Below, piece after piece: positions 6,322 through 24,041 of a DNA stretch of 49,126 nucleotides. The DNA is from an uncultured Bacteroidota bacterium (lineage in GTDB: Bacteria > Bacteroidota > Bacteroidia > Chitinophagales > LD1), in NCBI GenBank assembly GCA_903861145.1, contig CAIOTH010000036.1, forward strand, positions 1-49,126, in the 5' to 3' direction. Under the pieces are notes generated by a model, which worked only from the letters and a program-made list of their open reading frames with translations, made no database searches and was not told the origin of the DNA. The position numbers were made by a program, and so were the translations under genes. Each line of letters opens with the position of its first letter. The stretch's first letter is position 1.

Positions 6322-7704
6322 ATGTCGCAAGCCGCTGCAATACAACCCAAATCTGTTCCTGTTTTGGATGGGCCATGGCCATTGGGTAGTGCTACCTATT
6401 TTGCCAAAGGTCCGCTGACTTTTTTAGATACCTACGTACCGCAGTATGACGGGGTATTTGAGGTAACTTCTTTGTTCTTTAAAATGACCACGGATTTTAA
6501 GAAGATGATGTTTGTTACGAACCCTGATTATGTGAAGCACATTATGCAGGACAACAACCGCAACTATCGGAAAAGCTTTGGTTACGAAGTGCTTAAACTT
6601 TTGTTGGGTAAAGGACTTGTTACCAGCGAAGGCGACTTTTGGAGAAAGCAAAGACGGCTAATGCAACCGGCCTTTCACCGTGACAGGTTGGCGGCTTTCT
6701 CTAAAATAATGACGGACGCATGTACCGTAATGTTGGATAAATGGAAAGCATTACCCGATAAATCAGTTATCAACCTTTCGCACGACCTAATGGAGATGAC
6801 TCTGGCCATAATATGCAAAGCCATGTTTAGTACCGGGGTAAACGATGTGGTTGAGGTGGTAAACCGCGAGTTTAATGTTGCGAATGAAAAGTTAATTGCC
6901 CGCGCTATCAATCCGTTTAGAATTCCTTTGTGGATTCCTACCCCGGGCAACAACCGCGAAAACCAGGCTTACAGTGCTTTACATCAAATTGTTAGCGAGG
7001 TAATTACCAAGCGGCGCAAAAGCACCGAGCGTTACGACGATTTGATGGCTATGCTGATGGAAATGAAAGATGAGGACACCGGTGAAATGATGAGTGATTT
7101 GCAGATAAGGGACGAGGTGGTTACCATATTTTTAGCAGGGCATGAAACGACATCGGTTGCGCTTGCATGGCTGTTTCACTGCCTGGATGAAAATCCTGAG
7201 GTGGAACAAAAGCTATTAGCCGAAGCAACGACTGCTTTAAACGGGAGGACACCCGCCCTTGATGATTTGCGGCAATTGGAATATACACGCATGGTGATTG
7301 AAGAAACCATGCGCCTTTATCCACCGGTTTGGGGTGTAGGTAGACATGCACTTGAGGATGATATGTTTGGTGAATACTTTATTCCAAAAGATACAAATTG
7401 TCTTATCTCGATATATTCTATCCATCGCGACCCGAAATATTGGCCTGAGCCGTTGAAGTTTGTGCCTGAACGTTTTAGCAAAGAAAACAGCAAGGACAGG
7501 CACCGGTTTGTTTACTTTCCGTTTGGCGGCGGGCCAAGGTTATGCATTGGCAATAACTTCGCACTGATGGAGATGCAACTAGCCGTGCCTATGATTGTGC
7601 AGTATTTTAAAATGCACAAACCGGCAGGTTTTAAATTTGAGCTTGACCCGCTTGTTACCATGCGCCCAAAGCCTGAAATGCAAATGGAGATAAGCAGAAG
7701 ATAA
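6322..7704 (+). CDS. Cytochrome P450
   Basis: A 460-residue soluble P450. Diagnostic elements in order: the I-helix oxygen-binding motif AGHETTS, the K-helix ExxR (EETMR), the PERF meander (VPERF), and the haem loop FPFGGGPRLCIG with the axial thiolate at Cys408. No N-terminal membrane anchor and no fused reductase are present, so it needs separate redox partners (ferredoxin/flavodoxin and reductase), none of which lie nearby. The start ATG follows an A/C-rich stretch with no strong Shine-Dalgarno, normal in this phylum. It is divergent from the ABC unit and alone on its strand until the polysaccharide operon 300 bp downstream. The motif set resembles fatty-acid/alkane-type bacterial P450s, but the substrate cannot be read from sequence. 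Confidence 0.95.
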   Translation: MSQAAAIQPKSVPVLDGPWPLGSATYFAKGPLTFLDTYVPQYDGVFEVTSLFFKMTTDFKKMMFVTNPDYVKHIMQDNNRNYRKSFGYEVLKLLLGKGLVTSEGDFWRKQRRLMQPAFHRDRLAAFSKIMTDACTVMLDKWKALPDKSVINLSHDLMEMTLAIICKAMFSTGVNDVVEVVNREFNVANEKLIARAINPFRIPLWIPTPGNNRENQAYSALHQIVSEVITKRRKSTERYDDLMAMLMEMKDEDTGEMMSDLQIRDEVVTIFLAGHETTSVALAWLFHCLDENPEVEQKLLAEATTALNGRTPALDDLRQLEYTRMVIEETMRLYPPVWGVGRHALEDDMFGEYFIPKDTNCLISIYSIHRDPKYWPEPLKFVPERFSKENSKDRHRFVYFPFGGGPRLCIGNNFALMEMQLAVPMIVQYFKMHKPAGFKFELDPLVTMRPKPEMQMEISRR

Positions 7705-8003: not shown

Positions 8004-9986
8004 ATGCAAATTTTAAACGGCGCTAAACTAAGGGCGCATAATTATTTTTTATCGTTATCACTCAATTCCGGAAAGTGGAAGAGGAGTTTTTTGATGTTGT
8101 GTATATTATTGACAAGCACTGTTGCTATGGCCTCGCACACCGATACTTTGGGTTATGCAAAACAGTTAAGAAGTGAGGGCAAATTGAAAGAGGCTGCCGG
8201 TTGGTTGAAAGCCTATCATGCCAACCATAGTACTGACCTCAATTCTTCGTGGATATATGCTCAAACGCTATACTGGTTGAAAGACTTTAAAAAGGCTGAA
8301 AGTATTTATCACGAGGCCATTCTCGCTCACCCCAATAATTATTATTTGCAGCTGGATTATGTTAATGTATTGGTTGCTCTGGGTAACACTAAAAGTGCGA
8401 AACCACTATTAAGCAACTACCGAACTTTTGATTCAACAAGCGCAGGTTTTAAATCGGCCGTTGCGGATTTATACTGGAGCGATAAAAAGCGCAAGGCCGG
8501 CGAAATTGTGTATCGCAATTTTGCACCAACCGCTGCTGATACATTGAAACGCGTGAAGCAGCTAAAAGGCGAAGCTAGAATTCGTGATTCGTATAAGTTG
8601 ATTAAAACATATTACGGCGGCCATAGCAGCGATTTAAATACTACCTGGCTGTTTGGGCAAATTGCTTATCTCGATAAACACTTTAAACAATCGAAAAAGC
8701 TTTATAAAAAGGTTATAGCGGCGCATCCTGATAATTATTATCTGAAATTGGATTATGCCAAAACATTGGTTGACTTTGCTGACTATAAAGAAGCGAAACC
8801 TTTGCTGAGTATGTATCGTGGTTATGATTCTGCCAACCTTGAAATGAGACTTGATTTTGCTAAAGTTTACCTGGCCGAAGGCGAATATGATAAAGCCAAA
8901 AAAGAAATCAATGTGGTTTTGGCTAAGGATGGAAAAAACAGCCGGGCACTGGCCTTGTTAGATGAACTACATGCGGCACAAGCTTCCTGGATAAAAATTA
9001 TGGGGAATTATAATTTCGACTCGCAACCATTGCAAACTATAACTCCGACGGTGGATGCAGGCGTTTATCTGCATCCCGAGGCAAGCCTTAGGCTTAACCT
9101 GCAAACGCCGCTATTTATTAGCAATGGTTCTTTGAAGAATGCACAATGGTTGCAAATTGGCGACCAGTCTGCTTTTCGAAAGGCGGGTTTTCAATTTTCG
9201 TATGATGCCGGTGTGGTAAAGCAGCCCTATTTGAATAAAATATCGTGGACCGGTAATTTGGAATTAAAGCAATTGCTTTTTAAGCATTTTGTGTTACAGG
9301 CTCAAGCTGAGCGAAAACCATATTACTACACTCTAGGCAGTTTAGATACCGTAATAGTGGTGAACAGGTTTTCGGCCTATGCTGAGTGGAACGACTTGAA
9401 TAGCTGGAATGGCCATATCGCTTTTGAATTGAACCAGTTTCCTGATAAAAATTATACCATTGGCGGTAATGGTTGGGTGTTTACTCCTCCGCTAAAGGTT
9501 TCGGTATTAGAGTTTCGCGTAGGGTATGCTTATAGTTATAGCACTTCGAAAAGCAATGGTTTTGTGCCCGAAAATACTTTAGCGCAAATTATAGCCAACT
9601 ACTCAACCACTACAGATATAACCGGTGTTTACAGTCCTTATTTTACGCCCGATAATATGAGCGTGCATTCTGCGCTTGTGTCTATTGTTGCCCACCCGGC
9701 GAAAATATTTGACCTTGGGTTTAATGCCAACGTCGGTTTTTATGCAACTGCTTTAACTCCGTATTTCTACCTTAATAAAAATGCCAGCGAGGCAACATAC
9801 ATAGCCGAGGGATATGCTACTGAGAAATTTTACCCCATGGAGTTCAGTGCTTACGCGCTGGTAAGAATTTCGAAAAAAATAAGCTTAAAAGCGGATTATA
9901 CTTATCGTAAAACATACTTCTATACCAGTAATACAGTGGGTTTAGGTTTGAAAATAAATTTCTGGAATGAGCAAAAAGGGAAGTAA
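8004..9986 (+). CDS. TPR-containing outer-membrane beta-barrel protein (YaiO-like)
   Basis: 660 residues. The N-terminus holds a hydrophobic signal (RSFLMLCILLTSTVAMA, about residues 29-45); the annotated start gives an unusually long n-region, but KWKR just before the hydrophobic core is needed, so the upstream ATG is kept. Residues ~45-330 are helical TPR-like repeats (recurring LKDFKKAESIYHEAI and DEYDKAKKEI type units). From ~330 to the end the sequence alternates in amphipathic beta-strands rich in Tyr/Phe and ends in an aromatic strand, consistent with an outer-membrane barrel like E. coli YaiO, or the TPR-plus-porin design of PgaA/BcsC. It is the first gene of a three-gene operon and overlaps the glycosyltransferase by 20 nt. 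Inferred role: polysaccharide export pore with periplasmic TPR scaffold. Confidence 0.82.
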   Translation: MQILNGAKLRAHNYFLSLSLNSGKWKRSFLMLCILLTSTVAMASHTDTLGYAKQLRSEGKLKEAAGWLKAYHANHSTDLNSSWIYAQTLYWLKDFKKAESIYHEAILAHPNNYYLQLDYVNVLVALGNTKSAKPLLSNYRTFDSTSAGFKSAVADLYWSDKKRKAGEIVYRNFAPTAADTLKRVKQLKGEARIRDSYKLIKTYYGGHSSDLNTTWLFGQIAYLDKHFKQSKKLYKKVIAAHPDNYYLKLDYAKTLVDFADYKEAKPLLSMYRGYDSANLEMRLDFAKVYLAEGEYDKAKKEINVVLAKDGKNSRALALLDELHAAQASWIKIMGNYNFDSQPLQTITPTVDAGVYLHPEASLRLNLQTPLFISNGSLKNAQWLQIGDQSAFRKAGFQFSYDAGVVKQPYLNKISWTGNLELKQLLFKHFVLQAQAERKPYYYTLGSLDTVIVVNRFSAYAEWNDLNSWNGHIAFELNQFPDKNYTIGGNGWVFTPPLKVSVLEFRVGYAYSYSTSKSNGFVPENTLAQIIANYSTTTDITGVYSPYFTPDNMSVHSALVSIVAHPAKIFDLGFNANVGFYATALTPYFYLNKNASEATYIAEGYATEKFYPMEFSAYALVRISKKISLKADYTYRKTYFYTSNTVGLGLKINFWNEQKGK

Positions 9987-11583
9987 AAATCTTTGGGAGT
10001 TCAGGCAATCGCCGGGGGTAAAAAACATCGACAGGTTTTTTCTGCTCGTGTTAGTAGCCGCCGGTATATTCAGCGTGCTACAATTTGCTGACTGGTGGTT
10101 CAGGCAAGATCATATTGCCAACCTCTTGTTCTTCATATTGCTTAGCGTGATATTTTGGTATGGTATTGGCCGGCTAATTTTAATCTGGATTAATTACCTG
10201 GGTATTAGCAAGCCAGAACCGGTTATAGCTGAAGAAGGTTTGAGTGTAGCAATTTTTACTACCAGCTCGCCGGGAGAGCCATTGGAGATGTTTGAAAAAA
10301 CGCTGGCGGCCTGCAAAGAGATTACATACCCGCATACTACTTATTTATTGGATGACACAGGAATACCAGCGTTTAGAGAATGCGCCGAAAGGAATGGGGC
10401 TGTTTGGCTTGAATTGGTTGGTTTACCCGGTGCTAAGGCCGGAAAAATTAACGGCGCCCTGAAAAAAACGCACGAAGATTTTATCCTGGTTCTTGATCCT
10501 GACCACATTCCGTTTCCGAATTTTTTGGATAATACGTTGGGCTTTTTCCTCGATGAAAAAATGGGGTTTGTCCAGGTATCGCAGGCTTATTATAATCAAT
10601 ACCGTTCGTTTACGGCACATGGCGCCGCTGAGCAGACATATACTTTTTACGGGCCTACACAAATGAGTTTAAGCGGATATGGTTGTAGCGTGGCCATTGG
10701 TGCGAATTGTACTTTTAGGAGAAAGGCGCTTGAAAGTATTGGTGGGCATGGAATAGGATTGGCGGAAGATTTAGTAACATCTATTCGCATACACGCCGCC
10801 GGGTGGAAATCGGTTTACAACCCGGTTGTGGTTAGCCGCGGTTTGGTGCCGGAAGATTTTGGTTCATTCTGCAAGCAGCAGTTAAAGTGGAGTCGTGGCG
10901 TGTTCGAGGTAACCTTCGAAGAGATTCCGAAATTGTTTTGGAAGTTGACGGGTTGGCAAAGGCTTTCTTATTTGTCGATAGGTACTTATTATTTAGTGGG
11001 GGCCACTTCATTTTTCTTTACCATCATTCCGTTCCTGTTTTTCTTTACAGGCGTTCTGCCTGCTAAAATGTCGTTTGTTGACTTTTTGATTCGCGGTTCA
11101 TTCGTTGCGCTTATGGGTGTTTTAATTTACCTGTATATGCAAAAATGGATGTGCCATCCTGAAACCGAAAGAGGTTTGCATTGGCGGGGTATGGTTTTGA
11201 AATACGCTTGCTGGCCGGTGTTTTTTCTCGGCTTTTTGCTGGCCGTTGTAAATGCTGATATCCCCTACATACCTACGGCAAAAAAGGCTGTACGCGGTTA
11301 CTTTACGCCTTTTGCCCGGCCTTTGGTAGCGCATGTGCTACTATTTCTGTTTGCGCTTGGTTCAGTTTTTTTCTATCGCAGATATGTTGCCGATGAAACT
11401 GACCTGGTGCTGACGGCAGAAAAGACCTGGGGAATGATGGGCTTTGCATTTATTGCATTTATTATGAGTGTGGGCGGAATTTTGGCAGCCCTTGAAGCAA
11501 ACTATTTGAAAGAAGAAGACCCCTGGGATAGCGTTGATTTAGGTAAAATTAAAACCAGTAACGATGAAGGCAAAGACATTTAG
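9967..11583 (+). CDS. Processive family-2 glycosyltransferase, cellulose-synthase-like
   Basis: 538 residues, inner-membrane. Two N-terminal helices (about 22-40 and 52-75) precede a cytoplasmic GT-A domain with DDTG (Asp129-130), the DxD-type metal motif DPDH (177-180), the catalytic-base motif AEDL (Asp268) and QQLKW (304-308), the counterpart of the QxxRW signature of processive beta-glycan synthases with Lys in place of Arg. Several C-terminal helices follow (~330-500), forming the likely translocation channel. No PilZ domain is visible, so direct c-di-GMP control like BcsA is not supported. It overlaps both neighbours by exactly 20 nt, indicating translational coupling. Known relatives make cellulose, mannans, PNAG or hyaluronan; which polymer is made here is unknown. 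E. coli yaiP beside yaiO is a comparable pairing. Confidence 0.9.
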   Translation: MSKKGSKNLWEFRQSPGVKNIDRFFLLVLVAAGIFSVLQFADWWFRQDHIANLLFFILLSVIFWYGIGRLILIWINYLGISKPEPVIAEEGLSVAIFTTSSPGEPLEMFEKTLAACKEITYPHTTYLLDDTGIPAFRECAERNGAVWLELVGLPGAKAGKINGALKKTHEDFILVLDPDHIPFPNFLDNTLGFFLDEKMGFVQVSQAYYNQYRSFTAHGAAEQTYTFYGPTQMSLSGYGCSVAIGANCTFRRKALESIGGHGIGLAEDLVTSIRIHAAGWKSVYNPVVVSRGLVPEDFGSFCKQQLKWSRGVFEVTFEEIPKLFWKLTGWQRLSYLSIGTYYLVGATSFFFTIIPFLFFFTGVLPAKMSFVDFLIRGSFVALMGVLIYLYMQKWMCHPETERGLHWRGMVLKYACWPVFFLGFLLAVVNADIPYIPTAKKAVRGYFTPFARPLVAHVLLFLFALGSVFFYRRYVADETDLVLTAEKTWGMMGFAFIAFIMSVGGILAALEANYLKEEDPWDSVDLGKIKTSNDEGKDI

Positions 11584-12733
11584 AATATTTTCAACGCTTG
11601 CGGCTGTACTAGCGGGTGTTATCATTGTACTGGTATTGTCTTTTGCAGGTAACAAATCGCGCGGTCCACTGGAGAATTTTTTCACCGGTGCGGGTAACGC
11701 GGTGCAGCAGGTGGAAAATAATGTAATCATTAAACAACGGCAGCATAAACGTGCCGATGACCTTACCTGGTTTAACAGTTATATATCTGACCCCGCTAAG
11801 CTTAAAAATCCAGCAACTATTTTGTTAGGTGCTTATGATAACCAGATAAGCGAATCATTTAAGGCGGTTACTGAACTTGAAGATTCAATGCATACCAAGT
11901 TTCCGCTTATCCATATTTACACAGCGTGGGGAACAAAGGCAGAGGAACAATTTCCGCAGCAACAGGTTGATGCAGTTATTGCCTTAGGCTCTGTTCCGGT
12001 TATTACATGGGAGCCCTGGTTATCTGATTTCGATGCTGAAAAATACCCAGCGCTGCGAAAGATGGAGGAGCGTGATAAAGGTGGCCTTGCGGATATTGCC
12101 AAGGGGCTTTATGACCCTTATATCAAGCAATGGGCAACTGCTGCTAAAGAATCGGGAACGCCTATATTTTTGAGAGTCGGTCATGAGATGAACGACCCTT
12201 ACCGGTATCCATGGGGCCCACAAAATAACTCAGCCAAAGATTTTATATCGGCATGGAGGCACATTCACAATGTATTTAAAGCAGCCGGTGCAACTAATGT
12301 GATATGGGTTTGGAGTCCGCACCCTGCTTACGGTTTTTTCGATGCATTTTATCCCGGAAGCGCTTATGTGGATTATGTTGGTATCGGAACATTGAATTAT
12401 GGCACGGTTGCCAGTTGGTCGAAGTGGTGGACTTTCCAGGAAATTTTTGGAAACCATTATAAAGAAATGACGGGCTTTAAAAAACCTATTATGATTACAG
12501 AGTTTGGTTGCCTTGCAGTTGGGGGTAGCCGAAGCCAGTGGTTTGGCGATGCACTGGCTTCTTTACCAAAAGATTATCCATTGGTAAAGTCAGTGGTATT
12601 TTTTCACTTCTCTGAAGATAAAACGACTACACAACAGGCTATTAACTGGTATATCAAAAACGATGCTCCAACGATTAAATCTATCAGACAACAAATAAGT
12701 TTGTGGCCTGATAGTTTGAAAGATGTAAAATAA
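11564..12733 (+). CDS. Membrane-anchored GH26-like glycoside hydrolase
   Basis: 389 residues. One N-terminal transmembrane/signal-anchor helix (about residues 8-28, ending in AGNKSRG) and a single (beta/alpha)8-type domain. GH26 hallmarks: RVGHEMND with the probable acid/base Glu208, an aromatic PYRYPWG loop after it, WVWSPHP, and the probable nucleophile Glu313 in MITEFG. GH26 enzymes cleave beta-mannans, beta-1,3-xylan or mixed beta-glucans. Its place as last gene in the operon, overlapping the synthase gene by 20 nt, suggests it trims or edits the nascent polymer, as BcsZ or AlgL-like enzymes do, and hints that the product is beta-linked, perhaps mannan-like (inference). It ends 8 nt before the convergent methyltransferase gene. 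Confidence 0.87.
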   Translation: MKAKTFRIFSTLAAVLAGVIIVLVLSFAGNKSRGPLENFFTGAGNAVQQVENNVIIKQRQHKRADDLTWFNSYISDPAKLKNPATILLGAYDNQISESFKAVTELEDSMHTKFPLIHIYTAWGTKAEEQFPQQQVDAVIALGSVPVITWEPWLSDFDAEKYPALRKMEERDKGGLADIAKGLYDPYIKQWATAAKESGTPIFLRVGHEMNDPYRYPWGPQNNSAKDFISAWRHIHNVFKAAGATNVIWVWSPHPAYGFFDAFYPGSAYVDYVGIGTLNYGTVASWSKWWTFQEIFGNHYKEMTGFKKPIMITEFGCLAVGGSRSQWFGDALASLPKDYPLVKSVVFFHFSEDKTTTQQAINWYIKNDAPTIKSIRQQISLWPDSLKDVK

Positions 12734-13472: not shown

Positions 13473-16088
13473 TTACTGCTGTTCTTCTTCCTCTCTGTAT
13501 TTCATAACCTGATCTAAAGCATCAGGCACTACATCGCTAATAATGGTAATGAACGAGCCTTTGCCAGCATGTTTGATTGCGTAGTCAATAGCTTCGCTTT
13601 CCTTTTTAAGAACGGTTATTTTCTTTTTGGGATCGATGTTATGAATGCCTTGTGTTATTAGACGGATGATTTCATCATCGGCTTTACCTCGTAGGTTTTT
13701 ATCCTGGCGAATGATTATTTCATCAAATACCTTTGCGGCTTCTTCACCCAATTCAATGGTGTCGTTATCACGTCTATCACCAACACCGGCTACTATGCCT
13801 ACTTTGCAGGTGGCGTCGACTTTACCAAGGTACTTGCCAATGGCCTGCATGCCGTGGGCGTTGTGAGCATAATCAATGAGCACTGAGAAATTTTTAAACT
13901 GGAACATATTCATACGGCCCGGTGTTTGCGCCGGTGACGGCACAAAGGTTTCGAGCGCAAGCTTAATGTCCTCAATTTTGAAATCGCGCAAATATGCAGC
14001 CAGCACAGCGGCCAATGCATTTTGTATGTTGAACTCGGCTTTGCCACCAAAAGTGATTGGCACATTGGTAACCTTATCTACCCGTATTTTCCAATTTCCT
14101 TTTAATATGGTTATGTAGCCATGTTCGTAAACACAGGCTATGCCGTGTTTATCGCAATGCTCTTTAATACGCGGACTGTTTTCGTCCATGCTGAACAGCG
14201 CAATTTTGCAATCCAGTTCATCGCGCATTTTGTAGACCAAATCGTCATCGGCGTTAAGAATGGAGTAACCATCTTTTAAAACCGAATTAGGAACCACAGC
14301 TTTTACACGAGCTAATTGCTCCAGCGTGTCAATGCCTTGCAGCCCTAAGTGATCAGCAGCGATGTTGGTTACAACGGCCATATCGCAGTTATGGAAACCA
14401 AGGCCTGCACGCAAAATGCCGCCGCGGGCACATTCAAGCACGGCAAAATCAACGGTTGGGTCTTTCAAAACAAACTCTGCACTGATAGGGCCGGTACAAT
14501 CACCGCGCATCATCATTTGGTTTTGGATGTATACGCCATCGGTGGTAGTGAAGCCGACCTTATGGCCCATCTGTTTTACGATGTGTGCAATTAATCTCGT
14601 GGTGGTTGTTTTTCCATTGGTGCCAGATACGGCGATGATTGGAATACGAGCCGACGCGCCCGGAGGATAAAGCATATCTATAACCGGTTCGGCCACGTTA
14701 CGGCCAATGCCATCGGTAGGATCTAAGTGCATGCGGAAGCCTGGTGCGGCATTTACTTCCAGTACTGCCCCACCGTTTTCACTAACCGGCTCAGTAAGGT
14801 TTTCGGCCATAATATCAATGCCGCAAATATCGAGGCCGATAATGCGCGCAATTCTTTCGGCCATAAAAATGTTGGATGGATGTACCAGGTGTGTTACATC
14901 GTTTGCTGTACCACCGGTTGAAAGGTTAGCTGTTGTTTTTAGCCACAGTTCTCTGCCTTTTTCAATGACAGTTTCGAGCGTAAGGTTTTTATCTTTTAAA
15001 ATGTTGAGGGTTGACTCGTCAACCTTGATTGCAGTTAAAACTTTTTCGTGGCCATAGCCACGGCGTGAGTCGCTGTTTACAATGTCGATTAACTGCTGAA
15101 TGCTGTGAACCCCATCGCCAATAATGGCGGCAGGTGTGCGCAATGCAGCGGCAACAAATTTGTAATTGATAACTAACACCCGGTAGTCGCGGCCGGTAAT
15201 AAATTTTTCGCATATAACGGCGCGCCCATATTTTTGTGCCGCATTAAAACCAATTACGGCTTCATCCCAATTGGTAAGATTGGTTGTTGCACCTTTGCCG
15301 TGGTTGCCATTAAGCGGCTTGGTTACCAGCGGATAGCCGAATTTATTAATTGCAGCTTTTAAATCATCCTCGTCATAAACTACCGCTCCGCGTGGCACCG
15401 GTATCTCGGCTGCTTCAAGCAGGTTCTTGGTATCTTCTTTATCGCATGCAATTTCCACCGCTATACTTGATGTTGTTGATGCAATAGTTGCCTGTATGCG
15501 CTTTTGGTTTTTACCGTAACCTAATTGCACTAAGGAGTGGCGGTTTAAACGAATCCACGGAATTTGCCTTTTAATAGCCTCATCAACAATCGACCCCGTG
15601 GAAGGCCCGAGACGTTCGTCTTCGCGTATCTCGCGTAACTTTTGAATGCACGCAGGCAAATCGTATAGTGTACTATCCATTAGTGACTGTGCAATATCAA
15701 CAGCGGCGCGGGCAGCAAAAATGCCGGCCTTTTCTTCGTAGTATGAAAACACCACATGGTATACTCCCTTTTCCGATGTTTCGCGGGTGCGGCCATAGCC
15801 GCAGTCCATGCCCGCGAGGGTTTGAATTTCGAGTGCAATATGTTCAATTACATGGCCCATCCAGGTGCCTTCTTTTACTCTCGAGAAAAAACCACCTGGT
15901 GCCCCCTCACTACATCGGTGTTCGTACATAGTAGGGAAAGTTGCTTCAAGGCGCTCAGCAAACCCCGGAATTTTGTGCGTGGGCTTCTCTTCTGTTTCCT
16001 GAAGGTCGAGGCGCATTACAATTAGCTTATGACGCTTGTTGCTCCAGTAATTAGGGCCTTTCATTACTTTAATGTCGACAATTTTCAT
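13473..16088 (-). CDS. cphA: Cyanophycin synthetase
   Basis: 871 residues, the usual CphA1 length. It polymerises Asp and Arg into multi-L-arginyl-poly-L-aspartate using ATP. Order of domains: N-terminal domain (~1-160, beginning MKIVDIKVMKGPNYWS, a strong family signature), ATP-grasp domain (~165-480, with VTKPLNGNHGKGATT and VLEVNAAPGFRMH) that adds Asp, and a Mur-ligase-like domain (~485-871) with P-loop SGTNGKTTTTR (Gly489) that adds Arg. Upstream 16089-16246 is the divergent promoter region shared with cphB. The methyltransferase follows 32 nt downstream. Product granules are cytoplasmic nitrogen reserves. No truncation or missing key motif seen. Confidence 0.96.
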   Translation of the reverse strand: MKIVDIKVMKGPNYWSNKRHKLIVMRLDLQETEEKPTHKIPGFAERLEATFPTMYEHRCSEGAPGGFFSRVKEGTWMGHVIEHIALEIQTLAGMDCGYGRTRETSEKGVYHVVFSYYEEKAGIFAARAAVDIAQSLMDSTLYDLPACIQKLREIREDERLGPSTGSIVDEAIKRQIPWIRLNRHSLVQLGYGKNQKRIQATIASTTSSIAVEIACDKEDTKNLLEAAEIPVPRGAVVYDEDDLKAAINKFGYPLVTKPLNGNHGKGATTNLTNWDEAVIGFNAAQKYGRAVICEKFITGRDYRVLVINYKFVAAALRTPAAIIGDGVHSIQQLIDIVNSDSRRGYGHEKVLTAIKVDESTLNILKDKNLTLETVIEKGRELWLKTTANLSTGGTANDVTHLVHPSNIFMAERIARIIGLDICGIDIMAENLTEPVSENGGAVLEVNAAPGFRMHLDPTDGIGRNVAEPVIDMLYPPGASARIPIIAVSGTNGKTTTTRLIAHIVKQMGHKVGFTTTDGVYIQNQMMMRGDCTGPISAEFVLKDPTVDFAVLECARGGILRAGLGFHNCDMAVVTNIAADHLGLQGIDTLEQLARVKAVVPNSVLKDGYSILNADDDLVYKMRDELDCKIALFSMDENSPRIKEHCDKHGIACVYEHGYITILKGNWKIRVDKVTNVPITFGGKAEFNIQNALAAVLAAYLRDFKIEDIKLALETFVPSPAQTPGRMNMFQFKNFSVLIDYAHNAHGMQAIGKYLGKVDATCKVGIVAGVGDRRDNDTIELGEEAAKVFDEIIIRQDKNLRGKADDEIIRLITQGIHNIDPKKKITVLKKESEAIDYAIKHAGKGSFITIISDVVPDALDQVMKYREEEEQQ

Positions 16089-16246
16089 GGGTAAAGGGTT
16101 TATAGGTTATTGCGCTGGTAATGCCATAGGGGCTTGGCTTTACCTTCTTGCAATTTAAAGTTTTCGTTCAATTGATAAGCATTGTTGAAAAAAAAATTTC
16201 ATAATACTAATGCTTTTCCCAATTTCGGTTTTCAATTGTGTGGTAA

Positions 16247-17119
16247 ATGATACCTAAAGGAAAACTGATAGCCATAGGCGGAGCTGAAGATAAAGGCACT
16301 GACCTTGAAGCGGGAATAATTCAACGGAGCCAACTCAATTTTTTTGAAATTGGCATACTTAAAACTATCAGCAAACTGCTTGCTGATAAAAATGACCGCA
16401 TTGAAATTATTACTACCGCATCATCGGTACCTGATGAAGTTGGCGAGCAATACACTCTTGCATTTAATAAGTTGGGGTGCGGTAATGTTGGCCATTTAAG
16501 AATACGCGTGCGTGATGAGGCACTTGAGTATGAAAGCGTAGAGCGCCTTAAAGCATGCAAGGCCGTTTTATTTTCGGGCGGAAACCAGTTGAGGTTATCA
16601 TCAATTTTTGGTGGCACAGAGTTTTTAGACATTTTGAAAGAGCGCTATGAAAGCGAGCACTTTTTAATAGCGGGCACCAGCGCCGGTGCCATGGCTATGT
16701 CGTTAACCATGATTTATGAGGGGAACGCCACCAATGCTCATTTAAAAGGTGAAGTGAAAATTACCACCGGCCTGGGTTTTATACCGGGTGTAATCATCGA
16801 TTCGCATTTTAATAAGCGCGGCAGGTTTTCGAGGCTTGCACAAGCCGTTGCAGCAAACCCTGGTACAATCGGTATTGGGTTAGGAGAGGACACCGGTATT
16901 GTTGTTAGTAATGGTGAAGAACTGGAGGCCATAGGCTCTGGTTCGGTGATGATTCTTGATGGCAGAAATATTCATCACAATAACATTGCGGATATTGAGT
17001 TTGACCAGCCAATTTCGGTTGAAAATATTGTTGTGCACATCATGGCCAAGGGCAATACCTATAATATCAGGTCGCGCAAATTTAGGGGTAACGAGGTTGT
17101 GGTTAAACCAGCAGAATAG
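16247..17119 (+). CDS. cphB: Cyanophycinase
   Basis: 290 residues. A serine exopeptidase of family S51 that releases beta-Asp-Arg dipeptides from cyanophycin. The start MIPKGKLIAIGGAEDKG is typical, the nucleophile is Ser145 in AGTSAGAMAM, and FSGGNQLRL and the GLGFIPGVIIDSHFNKRGR stretch belong to the substrate-binding part. No signal peptide, so it is an intracellular CphB rather than a secreted CphE. It is divergent from cphA across 158 bp, so synthesis and breakdown may be controlled from one region. No isoaspartyl dipeptidase gene lies in the window; that final step must be elsewhere. It ends 11 nt before a convergent gene. Confidence 0.95.
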   Translation: MIPKGKLIAIGGAEDKGTDLEAGIIQRSQLNFFEIGILKTISKLLADKNDRIEIITTASSVPDEVGEQYTLAFNKLGCGNVGHLRIRVRDEALEYESVERLKACKAVLFSGGNQLRLSSIFGGTEFLDILKERYESEHFLIAGTSAGAMAMSLTMIYEGNATNAHLKGEVKITTGLGFIPGVIIDSHFNKRGRFSRLAQAVAANPGTIGIGLGEDTGIVVSNGEELEAIGSGSVMILDGRNIHHNNIADIEFDQPISVENIVVHIMAKGNTYNIRSRKFRGNEVVVKPAE

Positions 17120-17130
17120 CAGTGATTGCT

Positions 17131-19368
17131 TTACTTTTCTATCAGGACCTTTCCGGTAAATAAGGTGCCCGATTGGTTGATTCGAACGACATAAAAACCA
17201 TTGCATAACCCGGCGGTATTTACGGTAACGTGATGGCTGCTAAAGGTTGTTTCGGCAAATACTTTTTGGCCAAGCACATTAATTATCTCTGTCTGCGGAT
17301 TGACAAGATAATCACCGGTTATATCACAAACTACATAATCTTTAGCAGGGTTGGGAAATACATATAGTTGATGCTGTAAGGATGGAGCAACATCGGCTAC
17401 ACCTAATGAAGTGCCCGGATCCCAAACCGAATCTGAATACATCATCAACCCGCCCCTCGAATTTCCAATCAAGTATTCCATTTCGCCATCGCTGTTAATG
17501 TCGGCAATAGATAAGGTAGAATTATGGCCTACCGGTTGCCCTATAAAATCGGTTGTTATCCGGTTAAAAGTGCCGTTACGTAATTGACCTTGATCAATTA
17601 CATATTCATAGATGTTTCCTGATAATGAACCTACAAACAGTAACATATTTCCGGCTGAGTCTTTGCGTATAAAGGGCTGGCTATAACCTACAGAGTTTGG
17701 CGAAACTGTAACATTGATATTTCCGAAATTCGGGTTTACGGAGTCAGCATTGAAAACTGCCGAATCTTTGGTGCCGAAATTCCAGTAATAAGAAAGAGTG
17801 CCGTTTTGATTGCCCACAATTAGGTCATTCAGCGAATCGCCATTTACATCGTAAATAAAAGGAGCGCTGTATAAGCCCACGTTAATATTGAAGTATTGGG
17901 CCTGGGTCATTGATGGGTAGGAAGAACCGGTAGTGCCTGTGTTTTTAAAATAATGAATATTACCGGTAATATCACCAAGTAACAAATCCGCCTTCCCATC
18001 GCCATCTAAATCGCCGAATGCGGGGTTTGCTCCTTGCAGGCCATATGTGCTCATATTGTTGTAATCCTCGGTTAGCATAGTAAATTGAGGGTGCGTGGCA
18101 TCACCGGTATTTTCATAAAACGCCAGGGTAGATTTGTATGGATTGGAAGGTACAAAGTAACCGTAGTTGCCTACTACTATGTCCTGCAGTCCATCGCCGT
18201 TAAAATCATAAAATACAGCTTTTGACGCCGTACCAAAATCGAGCATGCTATGCACTAAAAACGAATCGCTTTGATACTCGTACCTGCAATTGACGTTACC
18301 GGTGTTTTTATAATACATCACATTTTTTATATCGCGCGCCTCGGTAGTTTGGTTAGGTGCAACCAGCAAATCTTCTTGCCCGTCGGCGTTTACATCAACT
18401 CCAAATCCGGCAGGGTAAGTGCGCATTACAATTGGCACATCGCACAAAGGATAGCTCGAATCAACCAGGCAGATATTTGCGTACGAGCTATCGCCACAGT
18501 TTTGCAGAAAACTAAGATTATCGTAACCAATATTACCATTCAATAAATCAACGGTTCTGTATTGAAGGTCCTGCACGGCATAAAGGCTATTGCCGGCATG
18601 TCGTGGGCCATGGGGTTGAGTAGTATCCTGGCCCGTTCCGCCTTTGCAGGTTATATTTAGTTCAATTGAGTTGCTTCCAGCATTTTGGCTGAAGTTTCCC
18701 CAGCAGGAGCTAGCCAGGACGTAATTAAAAGAATCAATATCGTAATGAGGGTTACCCGGGTGCTCCTTACTTTGGTTCTCGTAATACACCACATTGGTTC
18801 CAAACACTGCATAGGTTAAAATATCAATATCACCATCACGGTTTACATCGGTAATAACGGGTATATCGGCATAGTTCGCAAAGGCAATTGCGGTAAAGGG
18901 CGAATCGGTTAAGTACCGAATAACAGGGCATACTAAATCGTAATGCAAAAGGCCGTTTTGCATGCTGCCTTTAAAAACTTCTATGCCGGCCTGCGAACCG
19001 TTAAATGTAAATAAGTCGGGTATGCCATCATGATTATAATCGCGAAGTAGCGCAAACTGGCTAAGCCCGGATGGGAATAGGGCCTCGTATTGAGGAGCGT
19101 ATGTATACATTGAATCGGTGCCACTGCCATTGCTGAGATATGTAATAACCTTATTACCTTCTCTATCGAATATAAACAGGTCCTTAATCCCATCATTGTT
19201 CAGGTCGCCGGATGAAAACTGGGGGGCATTTACGCCTCCTGTCCATGCGGCGGATAGCAAGGCTCCGTTTTTATAAACCGGTATGCTGATAACCCTGTTT
19301 TTTGAGTTTTGGCCGTTTACGTGCACACTCCATAAAATCAAAATAGAAGCCAGCAGGCGATTCAGCAT
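17131..19368 (-). CDS. Secreted FG-GAP/VCBS repeat protein with T9SS sorting domain
   Basis: 745 residues. Signal peptide at the start (MLNRLLASILILWSVHVNGQ). At least eight calcium-binding-like FG-GAP/VCBS motifs recur, such as DLNNDGIKDLFIF, DYNHDGIPDLFTF, DVNADGQEDLLVA, DFNGDGLQDIVVG and DLDGDGKADLLLG, indicating one or two beta-propellers as in integrin alpha-type repeats. The last ~80 residues (LYVFPNPAKDYVVCDI ... GFYVVRINQSG ... GKVLIEK) form a type A T9SS sorting domain, so the protein is exported across the outer membrane and probably surface attached. The middle contains a Cys-containing, less regular insert (~210-310). Ligand unknown. Same strand as the copper-protein pair upstream, but separated by 119 bp with repeats. 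Confidence 0.9.
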   Translation of the reverse strand: MLNRLLASILILWSVHVNGQNSKNRVISIPVYKNGALLSAAWTGGVNAPQFSSGDLNNDGIKDLFIFDREGNKVITYLSNGSGTDSMYTYAPQYEALFPSGLSQFALLRDYNHDGIPDLFTFNGSQAGIEVFKGSMQNGLLHYDLVCPVIRYLTDSPFTAIAFANYADIPVITDVNRDGDIDILTYAVFGTNVVYYENQSKEHPGNPHYDIDSFNYVLASSCWGNFSQNAGSNSIELNITCKGGTGQDTTQPHGPRHAGNSLYAVQDLQYRTVDLLNGNIGYDNLSFLQNCGDSSYANICLVDSSYPLCDVPIVMRTYPAGFGVDVNADGQEDLLVAPNQTTEARDIKNVMYYKNTGNVNCRYEYQSDSFLVHSMLDFGTASKAVFYDFNGDGLQDIVVGNYGYFVPSNPYKSTLAFYENTGDATHPQFTMLTEDYNNMSTYGLQGANPAFGDLDGDGKADLLLGDITGNIHYFKNTGTTGSSYPSMTQAQYFNINVGLYSAPFIYDVNGDSLNDLIVGNQNGTLSYYWNFGTKDSAVFNADSVNPNFGNINVTVSPNSVGYSQPFIRKDSAGNMLLFVGSLSGNIYEYVIDQGQLRNGTFNRITTDFIGQPVGHNSTLSIADINSDGEMEYLIGNSRGGLMMYSDSVWDPGTSLGVADVAPSLQHQLYVFPNPAKDYVVCDITGDYLVNPQTEIINVLGQKVFAETTFSSHHVTVNTAGLCNGFYVVRINQSGTLFTGKVLIEK

Positions 19369-19487: not shown

Positions 19488-21152
19488 TTAATTAGTTACA
19501 ATTAGTTTTTGGGTAGTTTCTTTGCCGCCAATATTTACTGATACCAGATATACACCGGCTGCCAAATGATATTGTTCGGTATGTATTGGTAACGAATATT
19601 TACCCGATGGCTGATTAGTGTTGCTTAGCAAGGTGCCAATTTTGTTACCGGTAACATCGTAAAGGCTAATATCAACGGCCTGTTGGTCGGCAATTTCATA
19701 TTGAATTACGAATTCATCGGCCAAAGGATTAGGGAAAATTTTGATTGAGGTCTGCTCCTGGGGCACAGTTGCAACAGCAGTTATGTTATCGCCGGGAACG
19801 TAGAAGAAACCTACATCCATCATTTCATCTAATGCCGAAAATCCCCAAACCACCGGATTAGGGCCAGCGGTATTTATCCATGTTGCTTCTCCTATAAGGC
19901 CATTAAGTGGGTTAACGGGAAATAAAGAGTCGCCTGGCCAGGTACGGAAAGTAACATGTGGCCCCCAGCGGTAATATCCTACATCATATCCATCTTCATA
20001 ACTATAATTGCCATTGTAAATTTGCGCGCCTTTCGATCCATCCGGATTTCGCAGCCATACGTTAAACGCAGTGCCATATTTATGGGTATGCGTATAGAGC
20101 TTCCAGATATTCCAGTTCTGTGTTTGGCTGCTATCAAGGTCGGTTATTCTAAAGGTATGGGGTTGGCCATCTTCAGGTATAGATATATCGAGGTTTGGAA
20201 CATTATTTACCTGCATATATTTTTGCGCTGTTCCAACCGGTTGAGTATAGAAATTTATGTAAAGGTCTGTACTATAAATAGAATCGAGGCTTGGATTTTG
20301 GATATGTATATCGAAGTCGAACAATTGGCCTTGAGGAAAATAGAATGCCGTGCCGGTAGGTAAGGTATAGCTCCATAAACCTGCAGCTGTGCCTATGCCA
20401 TAAAGATCATTCTCCATAGAACTTTGAGCGAGCGGTCTAAGGCCATACGGGTATTGGGACGCGGAGCCGGGTTGAAATAGTAAAATTTGAAAATGATGAT
20501 CATTAGCCGGCATCATGGTGCTTATTTCTTTGGCCTCAATAGCAGCGGTTAAATGTGGATCGATTTTATAGAAAAGTTCAGTATCGCGGGTAGCGGCACT
20601 TAAAAATATTCTTCCGTAATATATTTGGAATCCGGTACCGGGTGCAGGCGCAGCATGCGGGCTATAGGTATCGTCAATTCCACCAGTGCGGTAATAACTG
20701 TTTATCACGGCGGTATCAATAACATTACCCGTTTCAGGTGCTCCAAACAAAATCCATTGCCGTATTAGTTCAATTTCGTTGTTAGCGAGGGCAGGAAGGC
20801 CGCTTGGCATATCTAACCCTTCCGATGGATGGTTCAGCTTTAAACCATCGCTTATACCATGGGCTACTTTGCGTAGCAAAAAGCTGCGCTGTACATCGCC
20901 GGGTGTAATGATTTTGTTAAAGCTGGCCACAGCCGCAGGATTTAGGGGAGTAAGATTGACCACCTCGTGGTAAAAAGAATCGGCAGAAACATTGATGTTA
21001 AATGTTGGCACGGTTCCATCATGACATGAAGAGCCGGCGCAGTGCGTTTGGATTATTGAATAAACCTGAGCGTAAGTGCTCTGCGCCTTCAATGAATTTT
21101 GAAGGGAGCTTATTACAAAAAACGCAATCAACAGGGGTGAAAACTTCTTCAT
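19488..21152 (-). CDS. Secreted haem-c / copper type II monooxygenase-like protein, T9SS cargo (copy 1)
   Basis: 554 residues. Signal peptide (1-23), then a small cytochrome-like segment with CAGSSCH (Cys38, Cys43, His44), a CX4CH rather than CXXCH haem motif, and a PSCyt-like continuation to ~130 (MPSGLPALANNEIELIRQWI). Residues ~170-460 resemble the two-domain peptidylglycine alpha-hydroxylating/dopamine beta-monooxygenase fold: NDHHF (His219-220, CuA-like), THTHKYG (His355 and 357, CuB-like) and ALDEM (Met444, CuB-like), followed by the FFYV strand. A T9SS type A sorting domain (IKIFPNPLADEF ... QKLIVTN) ends it. Inferred: extracellular copper-dependent oxidation or binding with electrons delivered through the haem. 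Substrate unknown. The paralogue at 21287-22954 is immediately upstream. Confidence 0.82.
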   Translation of the reverse strand: MKKFSPLLIAFFVISSLQNSLKAQSTYAQVYSIIQTHCAGSSCHDGTVPTFNINVSADSFYHEVVNLTPLNPAAVASFNKIITPGDVQRSFLLRKVAHGISDGLKLNHPSEGLDMPSGLPALANNEIELIRQWILFGAPETGNVIDTAVINSYYRTGGIDDTYSPHAAPAPGTGFQIYYGRIFLSAATRDTELFYKIDPHLTAAIEAKEISTMMPANDHHFQILLFQPGSASQYPYGLRPLAQSSMENDLYGIGTAAGLWSYTLPTGTAFYFPQGQLFDFDIHIQNPSLDSIYSTDLYINFYTQPVGTAQKYMQVNNVPNLDISIPEDGQPHTFRITDLDSSQTQNWNIWKLYTHTHKYGTAFNVWLRNPDGSKGAQIYNGNYSYEDGYDVGYYRWGPHVTFRTWPGDSLFPVNPLNGLIGEATWINTAGPNPVVWGFSALDEMMDVGFFYVPGDNITAVATVPQEQTSIKIFPNPLADEFVIQYEIADQQAVDISLYDVTGNKIGTLLSNTNQPSGKYSLPIHTEQYHLAAGVYLVSVNIGGKETTQKLIVTN

Positions 21153-21286
21153 AATTATTAGTGTTTTTTTAGTTTATATTAAAACGAAACCAGGTTCGTT
21201 GTTAATTCAAATTCCTATCACCATTGGTGCCCCCGGCCTCCGGAAAAACACCTTTTACATTTACTGCCGATCAATTAATAAAACTA

Positions 21287-22954
21287 TCACTCTGTTATTA
21301 TCAACTTCTGTGTTTCGATTTTACCACCAATGTTAAAATTAACCAGGTAAATGCCCGGCTGTAATTTATATTCAGATGCGTTAACATCATGCGTGTACTG
21401 ACCGGGGGCCTGCCCTTGTTCATTTACAAGGTTGGCAACTTTATGGCCAAGTACATCTAATAAATCAACCTGTACGTGTGCCGGTTGATCAAGGTCGTAT
21501 TTAAGTATAAACGCATCGGATACCGGATTAGGAAATACCCGGGCAGAGAAATTGTTGGCCGGAACCGTATTTACCGCAGTAGGTAGCGCTTCGCCATCAA
21601 CATAATAAAAGTAAACGGCCTCCATTTCATCGAGCGATGAGAAACCCCACCAAACTGTATCGGGGCCCATGGTATTAAGCCAGGTAGCTTCGCCAATAAC
21701 ACCTGTTAATGGATTTATTGGGAACAGAGAGTCGCCGGGCCAAGTGCGGAATGTTGCGTGCGGCCCCCAACGATAATACCCCACATCAAAGCCATCTTCA
21801 TAGCTATAGTTACCGTCATATATTTGTGCGCCCTTGCTTCCATCGGGGTTTTGCAGCCAAATATTAAATGAGGTGCCGTACCGGTGGGTATGGCTACTGA
21901 GTTTCCACAAATTCCAATAGTTACTACGGCTGGAATCCTGGCAAAGTAATGGATAAGTATGCGTATGTCCGTCTTGCGGTATGGATATATTCATGTTAAC
22001 GAATGACTCCATTCTCATATATGTGGTAGTAGTAGTAGCGGGTTCGGTATATACATTTATATACATCTCGCAACTGTAAATTGAATCGTGATAGGATGGA
22101 TTAGTTAAATGAAGATCAAGATCGAACATTTGGCCCGGGTTAAAGTAAAATGCAGTACCTGTAGGTAATTCGATGCTCCAGGTGCCGGTTGAGCCAATGC
22201 CAAACTGGTCGTATTCCATTGAGCCATCTGAAAGCGGCCTGATACCATAAGGATAATTCAAATCTCCTCCCGGTTGAAAGAGATACATAATAAAATGATG
22301 GTCATCTGAAGGCATCATATAAGAAACCTTATAAGCTTCGATGGCTTGAGTGATGTGTGGGTTAACTTTATAAAATACTTCGGTATCGCTAATTCCTTTA
22401 TTCATAAAAAAGCGGCCGTAGTAAATTTGGAAACCGGTTCCGGGAGCCGGAGGGTCGTGCTGGCCATAAACATCGTTCATGCCACCTGTGCGGTAATAAG
22501 TATTAATAATAGAGGTGTCAACAACATTGCCGGTTTCAGGCGCACCATATAGTATCCATTGGCGCACCAACTCAATTTCGTTATTGGCAAGTGCCGGCAA
22601 ACCATTAGGCATATCCAATCCTTCGGCGGGTTGATTTAGCTTTAATCCATCGCTTATGCCATGCGAAATTTTGCGCAACAAAAAGCTGTGTTGCACATCG
22701 CCGGGAGAAACCAGGGTATTGTAGTTTGCAGCTGCAGCCGGATTTACGGGTGTTTTGCCAATAATTTCATGATAAAATGAATCGGCGCTTACGTTGATAT
22801 TGAATGTGGGTACCGTACCATCATGACAGGAAGAGCCCGCACAATGGGTTTGAACCAACTGGTATACCTGGGCATAGGTGCTTTGGGCAGCCACGGGGCT
22901 TTTTACCTGAAATAGTATTAAGGCTAAGAACAACAGGGGTAAGAAATGTTTCAT
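21287..22954 (-). CDS. Secreted haem-c / copper type II monooxygenase-like protein, T9SS cargo (copy 2)
   Basis: 555 residues, colinear with copy 1: signal peptide (1-23), CAGSSCH with Cys38/Cys43/His44, DDHHF with His219-220, SHTHRYG with His355/357, and SLDEM with Met444. The key residues fall at identical positions in both copies, so all presumed ligands are under selection. The N-terminal ~170 residues and the region around YEDGxDVGYYRWGPH are almost identical; residues ~180-330 differ more. Ends in a T9SS type A domain (ARVFPNPVSDAF ... QKLIITE). It is upstream of copy 1 with 134 bp between them, on the same strand, so they are a tandem duplication and possibly one transcript. Haem attachment to CX4CH and copper binding are inferred from motifs only. 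Confidence 0.82.
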   Translation of the reverse strand: MKHFLPLLFLALILFQVKSPVAAQSTYAQVYQLVQTHCAGSSCHDGTVPTFNINVSADSFYHEIIGKTPVNPAAAANYNTLVSPGDVQHSFLLRKISHGISDGLKLNQPAEGLDMPNGLPALANNEIELVRQWILYGAPETGNVVDTSIINTYYRTGGMNDVYGQHDPPAPGTGFQIYYGRFFMNKGISDTEVFYKVNPHITQAIEAYKVSYMMPSDDHHFIMYLFQPGGDLNYPYGIRPLSDGSMEYDQFGIGSTGTWSIELPTGTAFYFNPGQMFDLDLHLTNPSYHDSIYSCEMYINVYTEPATTTTTYMRMESFVNMNISIPQDGHTHTYPLLCQDSSRSNYWNLWKLSSHTHRYGTSFNIWLQNPDGSKGAQIYDGNYSYEDGFDVGYYRWGPHATFRTWPGDSLFPINPLTGVIGEATWLNTMGPDTVWWGFSSLDEMEAVYFYYVDGEALPTAVNTVPANNFSARVFPNPVSDAFILKYDLDQPAHVQVDLLDVLGHKVANLVNEQGQAPGQYTHDVNASEYKLQPGIYLVNFNIGGKIETQKLIITE

Positions 22955-23156: not shown

Positions 23157-24041
23157 ATGAAATTTTTTACCCTTCTGTTAATAACAACATTTATTTCCAC
23201 CTGGGCTATTGCCCAGGATACTATTCCTAACGCTGGGTTTGAAAACTGGACAGCCAATGTTGTTCCGGCGTATAATAACCCTGACGGTTGGACGACCCTA
23301 AATCCACTTACCGGCGCACTGAACGTGTTTACCGCTTTCAAAGATTCTACAGTTGTGCATTCGGGACATTATTCAATTAAGCTTGTAACCAAATCTGTAG
23401 CGGGTCAAACGGCTCCTGGTATTTTAACCACGGGAACCGTAAACGCCGGCAGTGGCAACATAACAGGTGGCGTTCCTATTGCATCGCGTCCGGCTTATTT
23501 AAGCGGATGGTATCAATATTCTCCGGTAAGTGGCGATACCGCGGCGGCGTCTATTTTGCTTACCAAATGGGATGCGGTTGGTGATTCGGAAATTATTGTT
23601 GGCCAGGCCAGTAAGAATATTGGATCTGCAGCCAGCAGTTGGACCTCGTTTTCGATGGCTATTAACTATTTAACGAACGCTACACCTGATACCGTATTGA
23701 TTTCGTTTTTCTCCAGCGCTACTCAAGCTGGTGCAGTGAATAGCACACTTTGGCTTGATGATTTAAGCTATACAGCCATTAATGGAATAAATGAAATAGA
23801 AAATAGCCCGATGAGTTTATATCCTAACCCGGCTAGTCAACAAATCAATATTGACAACGGGAATATGCAGGCTGCCAGCGTTAATTTGTACGCAGTTGAT
23901 GGCCGTTTTATTAAGTTGATAAAAATGCACGAAGGTCTAAATACATTGGATGTTAGCTCGTTGCCTGCCGGTGTTTACATTTTGAGTGGGGTAGGAACTG
24001 AAGGGAATGTCTACCATTCATCGGTAGTGATTGATAAATAA
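23157..24041 (+). CDS. Secreted PCMD-like protein with T9SS sorting domain
   Basis: 294 residues from the chosen ATG at 23157. A longer frame reaches back to a GTG at 23061, but only the 23157 start gives a clean signal peptide (MKFFTLLLITTFISTWAIAQ). The mature N-terminus DTIPNAGFENWT, with the later GWYQYSP and STLWLDDLSY segments, resembles the jelly-roll putative carbohydrate-metabolism domain (PCMD) or carbohydrate-binding modules. The C-terminus from ~215 (MSLYPNPASQQINI ... GVYILSGV ... SSVVIDK) is a T9SS type A sorting domain. Divergent from the copper-protein genes. Probable outer-surface sugar-binding protein; ligand unknown. Confidence 0.8.
   Translation: MKFFTLLLITTFISTWAIAQDTIPNAGFENWTANVVPAYNNPDGWTTLNPLTGALNVFTAFKDSTVVHSGHYSIKLVTKSVAGQTAPGILTTGTVNAGSGNITGGVPIASRPAYLSGWYQYSPVSGDTAAASILLTKWDAVGDSEIIVGQASKNIGSAASSWTSFSMAINYLTNATPDTVLISFFSSATQAGAVNSTLWLDDLSYTAINGINEIENSPMSLYPNPASQQINIDNGNMQAASVNLYAVDGRFIKLIKMHEGLNTLDVSSLPAGVYILSGVGTEGNVYHSSVVIDK

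Follow-up and report, generated by a model that had tools for sequence, protein, structure and literature searches.

Tandem T9SS-tagged proteins of an uncultured Bacteroidota bacterium join a haem c-like domain to a PHM/DBH-like dicopper core

A stretch of 49,126 nucleotides from an uncultured Bacteroidota bacterium of the order Chitinophagales (assembly GCA_903861145.1, contig CAIOTH010000036.1, positions 1 to 49,126), referred to here in its full length as the window, carries two tandem genes. We consider it probable that the product of each is a copper monooxygenase, secreted or at the cell surface, that resembles PHM (peptidylglycine monooxygenase) and DBH and has a built-in haem electron donor; within this reading we infer the occupancy of the haem and copper sites, the path of the electrons and the monooxygenase activity. 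The two open reading frames (ORFs), copy 1 at 19488..21152 (554 residues) and copy 2 at 21287..22954 (555 residues), lie on the minus strand, as do all of their features given below, and were found where an initial annotation of the bare sequence had placed them. They are 63% identical across 539 columns and have one layout, namely a signal-like N-terminal stretch (judged by eye), a haem-c-like domain, a PHM/DBH-like dicopper core and a type A sorting domain of the type IX secretion system (T9SS). C38, C43, H44, H219, H220, H355, H357 and M444 carry the same numbers in both copies, as the initial annotation had noted. Judged by sequence comparison, the architecture is real and conserved, and among the papers listed by the literature searches no title or abstract gave an account of a bacterial PHM-cytochrome enzyme (open-licence PubMed Central, without bioRxiv, which does not show its absence).

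For the copper core, copy 2 was modelled with AlphaFold2 from a 32-member family alignment, which gave a mean pLDDT of 85.4 and a pTM of 0.74. The PHM/DBM-like fold suggested at the outset was recovered from this model, as the top 31 rows of a Foldseek search against the PDB were all PHM or DBH (E 1.2e-12 to 4e-8). In VIA the model matched PHM (6ala_C) with a Z of 22.6 and a root-mean-square deviation of 3.0 over 264 aligned residues at approximately 13% identity, the match spanning model residues 167-455 on PHM 53-327, and DBH was matched with a Z of 21.5. The best VIA row outside PHM/DBH (Z 11.3) was confined to the tag domain. The two-domain PHM core fold is present in copy 2 as modelled, and fold match and sequence register together place the core at residues 162-456 (21587..22471); by alignment with copy 2, the core of copy 1 lies at 19785..20669.

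HH, HTH and DEM had been read as PHM-type copper ligands, and this reading is supported by two routes. HTH and DEM fall in register with PHM itself, the core profile pairing HTHkyG with HTHHLG and adEMmvvyilY with SDEMCNLYIMY, and HH is reached through a sister family to DBH. This sister family, drawn from the same order of genomes, aligned in hhalign with the window family over the whole length including the T9SS tails (probability 99.8, E 2.1e-27), with the pairs CX4CH/CXXCH, HH/HH, H282/His of HY, HTH/HxH and DEM/NEM. One sister protein in turn aligned with DBH (E 0.017), pairing VHH, IHY and HCHL with VHH, VHY and HTHL. On account of these registers to PHM, to the sister family and from the sister family to DBH, we assigned H219, H220 and H282 (H283 in copy 1) as CuH ligands and H355, H357 and M444 as CuM ligands. 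The refuting condition set in the initial annotation, a structure in which HH, HTH and DEM fail to form two metal sites, was addressed indirectly, through the fold match and the sequence register. The third histidine of CuH, which the initial annotation had left to be checked, comes from register and invariance and is new, as are the probable distal haem ligand M115 and the CX2CH and CX3CH motifs of other members discussed below. In copy 2 the predicted CuH ligands lie at 22295..22300 (H219-H220) and 22109..22111 (H282), both placed by invariance and by register to the sister family and DBH, and those of CuM at 21884..21892 (H355-T-H357) and 21623..21625 (M444), placed by the PHM pairing and the sister-family alignment. 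Alignment of the copies puts their counterparts in copy 1 at 20493..20498 (H219-H220), 20304..20306 (H283, also from the 32-member alignment), 20082..20090 (H355-T-H357) and 19821..19823 (M444), the last two also in PHM register. At E up to 1, the Pfam family Cu2_monoox_C matches 18 of the 32 alignment members (best 6e-6), and it is above cut-off in two family copies elsewhere in the same genome (C15 and C117).

These ligands are conserved across the family. The 32-member alignment holds the two window copies, three paralogues from their own genome and 27 of the 30 loci of the first profile search, leaving out the window itself (L009), a locus cut by a contig end (L022) and a near-copy of L034 (L035). 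Candidate ORFs at these loci were picked by the HH/HTH pattern, which all of the loci except L022 passed. With identity to copy 2 falling to 26%, the six copper ligands and C38 never vary, and C43 and H44 almost never do. Ligand conservation exceeds chance, C38 and the copper ligands being invariant at identities this low. A recount over 122 family ORFs taken without a motif filter gave the same result among the rows reaching each column: H219 and H220 are each present in 119 of 119, H282 in 121 of 121, and H355, H357 and M444 each in 120 of 120, the conservation of the EM pair (E443, M444) being partly by construction in L039-L117, for which the scan pattern held [DEN]EM. The 38 ORFs that came from outside this EM-pattern scan carry the six ligands without exception. 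A sister-group row (L059_11494), the source of a lone G at the H219 column, was left out of the recount. Locus ends truncate the first ORF of L012 and the fragments from L017, L027 and L102; the 331-residue fragment L081_10369 does not lie at such an end.

Ahead of the core lies the segment in which a haem would be held. Residues 22-161 of copy 2 (22472..22891), modelled alone, gave a confident helical model (pLDDT 87.2). The segment contains the CX4CH attachment motif C38-H44 (CAGSSCH, 22823..22843), which pairs with the sister-group CXXCH and whose equivalent in copy 1, by alignment of the copies, is at 21021..21041. Among the family rows reaching these columns, C38 is found in 115/115 and C43 and H44 in 114/115 each. 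The loop between the cysteines varies: in a motif-filtered set of 108, CX4CH occurs 52 times, CX3CH 29 times and CX2CH 23 times, with no motif in four, and relatives carry the canonical CXXCH at the columns of the window CX4CH. Three of the four motif-less rows are explained, since the first ORF of L012 is cut by the locus end and L089 and L104 are artefacts; the latter two were rejected as haem-less members, their C..CH lying upstream of the first Met (L089) or in another frame (L104). In L030, C43 and H44 are lost and the distal column lacks Met, with the copper ligands kept.

We turn next to the distal side of the putative haem site. M115 (22610..22612 in copy 2) is the probable distal ligand, and its reach to the iron is something we infer. 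Of the 114 rows with C..CH, 99 have Met at its column, 11 have a His no more than two residues away and 4 have Cys; a nearby His is found in 11 of the 15 rows without Met versus 2 of the 99 rows with it. This is the pattern expected for a haem protein, with the axial ligand apparently swapped and not lost. Motif conservation across the family, the distal-site pattern and the pairing with the sister-group CXXCH agree with the haem-type segment that had been proposed, and we regard haem binding as well supported by these comparisons. At E up to 1, the NCBIfam SO2930 dihaem c-type cytochrome model matched 14 of the 32 members (best 1.8e-6; the score of member 1 is far below cut-off), and Pfam Cytochrome_CBB3 matched three of the 32 (best 0.0048).

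The four-residue gap between the cysteines had been singled out as an oddity; CX4CH is real in both copies, but the spacing itself is nothing special. When spacing was treated as a four-state label on a tree of 123 core sequences (LG+G4, quick search, the program flagging the long branch of L137), 27 changes were needed, with five rows labelled "none", of which three are the artefacts L012, L089 and L104. Well-supported branches alone force 10 (X4), 9 (X3) and 10 (X2) changes. In the cytochrome MmcA, haem attachment at both CXXXCH and CXXXXCH was demonstrated by mass, according to excerpts of the published account (PMC11024163). Given the many changes of spacing within the family and this precedent, CX4CH is not an exotic feature.

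The same layout extends well beyond the window. A search for the combined architecture, suggested by the initial annotation, was productive, and it also showed that the layout is not peculiar to this locus. The window's own genome holds five family members (C36 twice, C117, C15 and C89) as well as the sister group with a haem-like segment and core (C157, C17, C24 and C113). Both whole-genome samples consisted of Bacteroidota. In a sample of 60, 43 genomes, own included, matched the family query at E up to 0.001. Four matches are confined to haem-domain stretches (ORFs of 316-326 residues), and for G033 and G053 such a match is the sole one. These four (G033:C130, G038:C392, G040:C69 and G053:C82) suggest that the haem domain also occurs without the copper core. 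In the broader phylum sample the core was found in 22 of 395 genomes, own included, and 21 of the 22 matching ORFs outside the own genome have C(X2-4)CH ahead of the core. Only L137 departs from this, being a stand-alone PHM-like core of 307 residues that starts with a lipobox-like stretch and lacks a haem domain; its genome is approximately 1.7 Mb in size. A lipobox-like [SAG]C was seen by eye near the start in 19 of these 22 matches, L140, L145 and L147 being those without it, and L140 carries a T9SS tag.

An alignment scan of a contig collection confirmed 121 stretches, and the best 80 of these 121, representing 79 loci, were kept; all of the 80 have Bacteroidota titles or, for two, "uncultured bacterium". 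A scan of the same collection with a single protein matched 17 stretches, none of which was confirmed, and a plasmid collection searched in protein mode gave no match. Two or more family members occur in 20 of the 80 loci, window included, so tandem copies are common. In the tree, close copies from two genomes of the same genus group with copy 2, and copy 1 branches outside this group, which suggests that the duplication preceded the split of those species. Overall, the layout is, by these searches, widespread in Bacteroidota and not unique to the window locus.

Apart from the partly built-in EM pattern, several results weigh against reading these proteins as haem-wired PHM-type enzymes. The core profile matches PHM weakly, with E 0.04-0.22 for whole sequences and no single stretch reaching significance, and the pairing of HTH with PHM appears in one of the four alignments printed. 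Neither Cu2_monooxygen nor Cu2_monoox_C matched the window copies at E up to 10, and in a Pfam search of the own genome at E up to 1 the copper-core families missed them; Por_Secre_tail is the only Pfam family above cut-off in copies 1 and 2, and the single copy 2 sequence matched no PDB sequence at E up to 10. For the haem domain, Foldseek against the PDB gave nothing significant (best E 0.4, hydrazine synthase, with two more at E 9.8 that are unrelated). VIA placed it on hydrazine synthase (Z 6.9), FoxE (Z 6.5) and a complex III supercomplex chain (7e1v, Z 2.3), where Z 6.5-6.9 is in the range that a common arrangement can yield, and the top match of the haem-domain profile search was FoxE at E 0.13. 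Finally, L030 and L137 retain the copper ligands without a haem motif.

The weakness of the profile and fold matches to solved cytochromes is what would favour reading the C..CH segment as a structural or zinc-type element, with no haem in the CX4CH copies. We hold this to be very improbable, considering that relatives carry canonical CXXCH at the same columns, that all 114 rows with C..CH offer Met, His or Cys at the distal site, that MmcA attaches haem at both longer spacings (PMC11024163, in the excerpts noted) and that the genome has cytochrome c maturation genes.

A second alternative keeps the PHM/DBH-type monooxygenase but has it reduced by small diffusible reductants, the haem serving instead to sense redox state or oxygen, to dock a partner cytochrome or to drain electrons. 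The two natural members without the motif, L030 and L137, speak for it, since they keep all copper ligands, as does the established use of ascorbate by the eukaryotic members. Because of these two members, haem appears not to be required in every member of the family. However, the haem motif in 21 of 22 phylum-sample relatives and the near-invariance of C38, C43 and H44 fit poorly with such an accessory role, and we consider this alternative rather unlikely.

A third possibility dispenses with oxygenation altogether and sees in these proteins a surface copper-binding or electron-transfer protein, active in copper capture or extracellular electron transfer, which has kept the PHM metal sites. 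Here the surroundings of the family are relevant. Among the 79 loci scanned, 10 include a lipoprotein-like gene bearing an HMA motif; in seven of them (L061, L064, L067, L068, L072, L074 and L081) it directly adjoins a family gene, and in the others (L076, L087 and L091) it lies in the same locus. Pfam HMA was confirmed in both genes tested, and one of the HMA-motif genes matched NCBIfam models of the metal-binding, mercury and copper-chaperone types without reaching any of the cut-offs; the gene is a candidate metallochaperone. The HMA-motif genes near the family carry CX3C (GMTCxxGC type) and not the usual CXXC. Together with the lack of conservation at the substrate-clamp positions of PHM, these genes lend this possibility some support; it is countered by the invariance of both copper sites, including the Met and the CuM pair, which goes beyond the needs of copper storage. 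We judge it quite unlikely, a little more so than reduction by diffusible compounds.

We therefore return to the haem-wired monooxygenase as the probable reading, and to how it might operate. The mono-haem cytochrome c domain (CX4CH, M115) and the CuH and CuM sites would presumably be loaded in the periplasm, after which the folded protein would leave through the type IX system, its C-terminal tag being the site of processing. The haem would receive electrons from a partner and hand them to CuH, taking the role that ascorbate has in the animal enzymes, and O2 would be activated at CuM, leading to hydroxylation of a C-H bond of the substrate. In other oxidoreductases a cytochrome domain serves as an internal mediator, as parts of one account describe (PMC6472588); haem would by analogy replace ascorbate, and donor to haem to CuH to CuM is the likeliest scheme.

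Export is predicted from the tags themselves, which had been recognized from the outset. Por_Secre_tail is present in both copies (E 1.3e-11 and 1.1e-9) and TIGR04183 is above cut-off in each, placing the type A sorting domain at 21296..21538 in copy 2 and 19497..19739 in copy 1. With this domain at both C-termini and PorU in the genome, copies 1 and 2 have the features predicted for T9SS cargo. The T9SS moves folded proteins from the periplasm, so loading with haem and copper would be possible before export. ResB (System II maturation) was not found in the own genome, and a look for System I-type genes turned up a Cytochrom_C_asm protein and CcmE.

More tentatively, the family may represent a large Bacteroidota branch of PHM/DBH in which haem c is hard-wired (haem to CuH to CuM, with no ascorbate), the haem has been retuned repeatedly in its loop (2/3/4) and distal ligand (Met/His/Cys), and delivery is lipoprotein-like or by T9SS; such wiring might even be older than the animal enzymes that run on ascorbate. 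We offer this broader picture as a possibility that is itself doubtful. A bacterial branch with a haem donor of its own would provide a tractable system for the long-debated question of how electrons arrive at, and cross between, two distant coppers, since donor and coppers would belong to one chain and single cysteine changes could switch the donor off. L030 and L137, as natural copies without the haem motif, would be controls on the need for haem, and oxidative surface chemistry would be added to the known T9SS cargoes.

Two neighbours of the tandem genes also recur near their relatives. Beside copy 2 and divergent from it is a T9SS-tagged protein with a PCMD (putative carbohydrate metabolism) domain (23160..24041, plus strand), and downstream of copy 1 is an FG-GAP repeat T9SS protein (17131..19368, minus strand) whose relatives adjoin a family gene in L039, L040 and L066. 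PCMD-like genes directly adjoin a family gene in 14 of the 80 loci and make up 14 of 149 adjacent ORFs versus 5 of 675 other ORFs, a contrast that is indicative only, given that adjacent genes had seeded the profile and that the loci are related to one another. The own genome has a further PCMD gene at C65. Elsewhere in the window, a cyanophycin synthetase (TIGR02068, 1267 bits) is divergent from a cyanophycinase (TIGR02069, 232 bits) at 13473-17119, both above cut-off and together a predicted nitrogen-storage pair. Three slightly overlapping genes at 8004-12733 encode a TPR-type protein, a cellulose-synthase-like glycosyltransferase (CelA 4.4e-40, below cut-off) and a protein of 389 residues with no NCBIfam match, and possibly form a surface polysaccharide operon. 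A cytochrome P450 at 6322-7704 resembles albaflavenone and pentalenene oxygenase models and a 571-residue protein at 43616-45331 matches collagen-like adhesin models, in both cases below cut-offs.

How do these proteins compare with known systems? The haem domain has weak structural neighbours in FoxE (5mab, Z 6.5) and hydrazine synthase (5c2v, Z 6.9), whose domains we take to carry c-type haem and which have no copper core attached. MmcA of Methanosarcina acetivorans shares haem attachment at CXXXCH and CXXXXCH, as excerpts of its description state (PMC11024163), and is otherwise unrelated, being a heptahaem archaeal cytochrome. An LPMO was considered and rejected, as no His was seen by eye at the probable mature start near residue 24 (QST) and the core fold is that of PHM. 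Also related to the family is the sister group, which has a haem-like segment and a Cu2_monoox_C-type core (Pfam above cut-off in C157, C17 and C24), with Cu2_monooxygen also in C157 and the T9SS tag confirmed in C157 and C24; C113 gave no T9SS match. They differ in an MPPW motif in the haem segment, in HMH or HCH for HTH and in HYP or HYG for HxxN. In C17 (L119, own genome), CTSYHH replaces the CXXCH of its relatives, and the haem site looks damaged.

The textbook enzymes PHM and DBH are known chiefly from eukaryotes, where they use ascorbate. With PHM (PDB 1phm, 6ala and others) the window proteins share the two-domain core, matched end to end, with the CuM HxH and DEM in register; unlike PHM, they also carry a haem-type domain and a T9SS tag. 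An Arg two residues before HTH (column 353) and an Asn two after the Met (column 446), which we take to be the substrate clamp of PHM, are found in 0 of 120 family rows. A peptide ending in glycine is probably not the substrate, given that these residues are missing. Pfam found no PAL domain in either copy; PAL can be a separate protein, and the own genome was not searched for one. With clamp residues and same-chain PAL domain both absent, peptide amidation was rejected as an unlikely reaction. DBH and the MOXD type (PDB 4zel) have the core in common with the window proteins (VIA Z 21.5), and HxxNP, the motif around the third His in copies 1 and 2, is similar to the VHYHNP of DBH. DBH carries a DOMON domain, whereas the window family, which is bacterial and T9SS-tagged, has a c-type haem segment.

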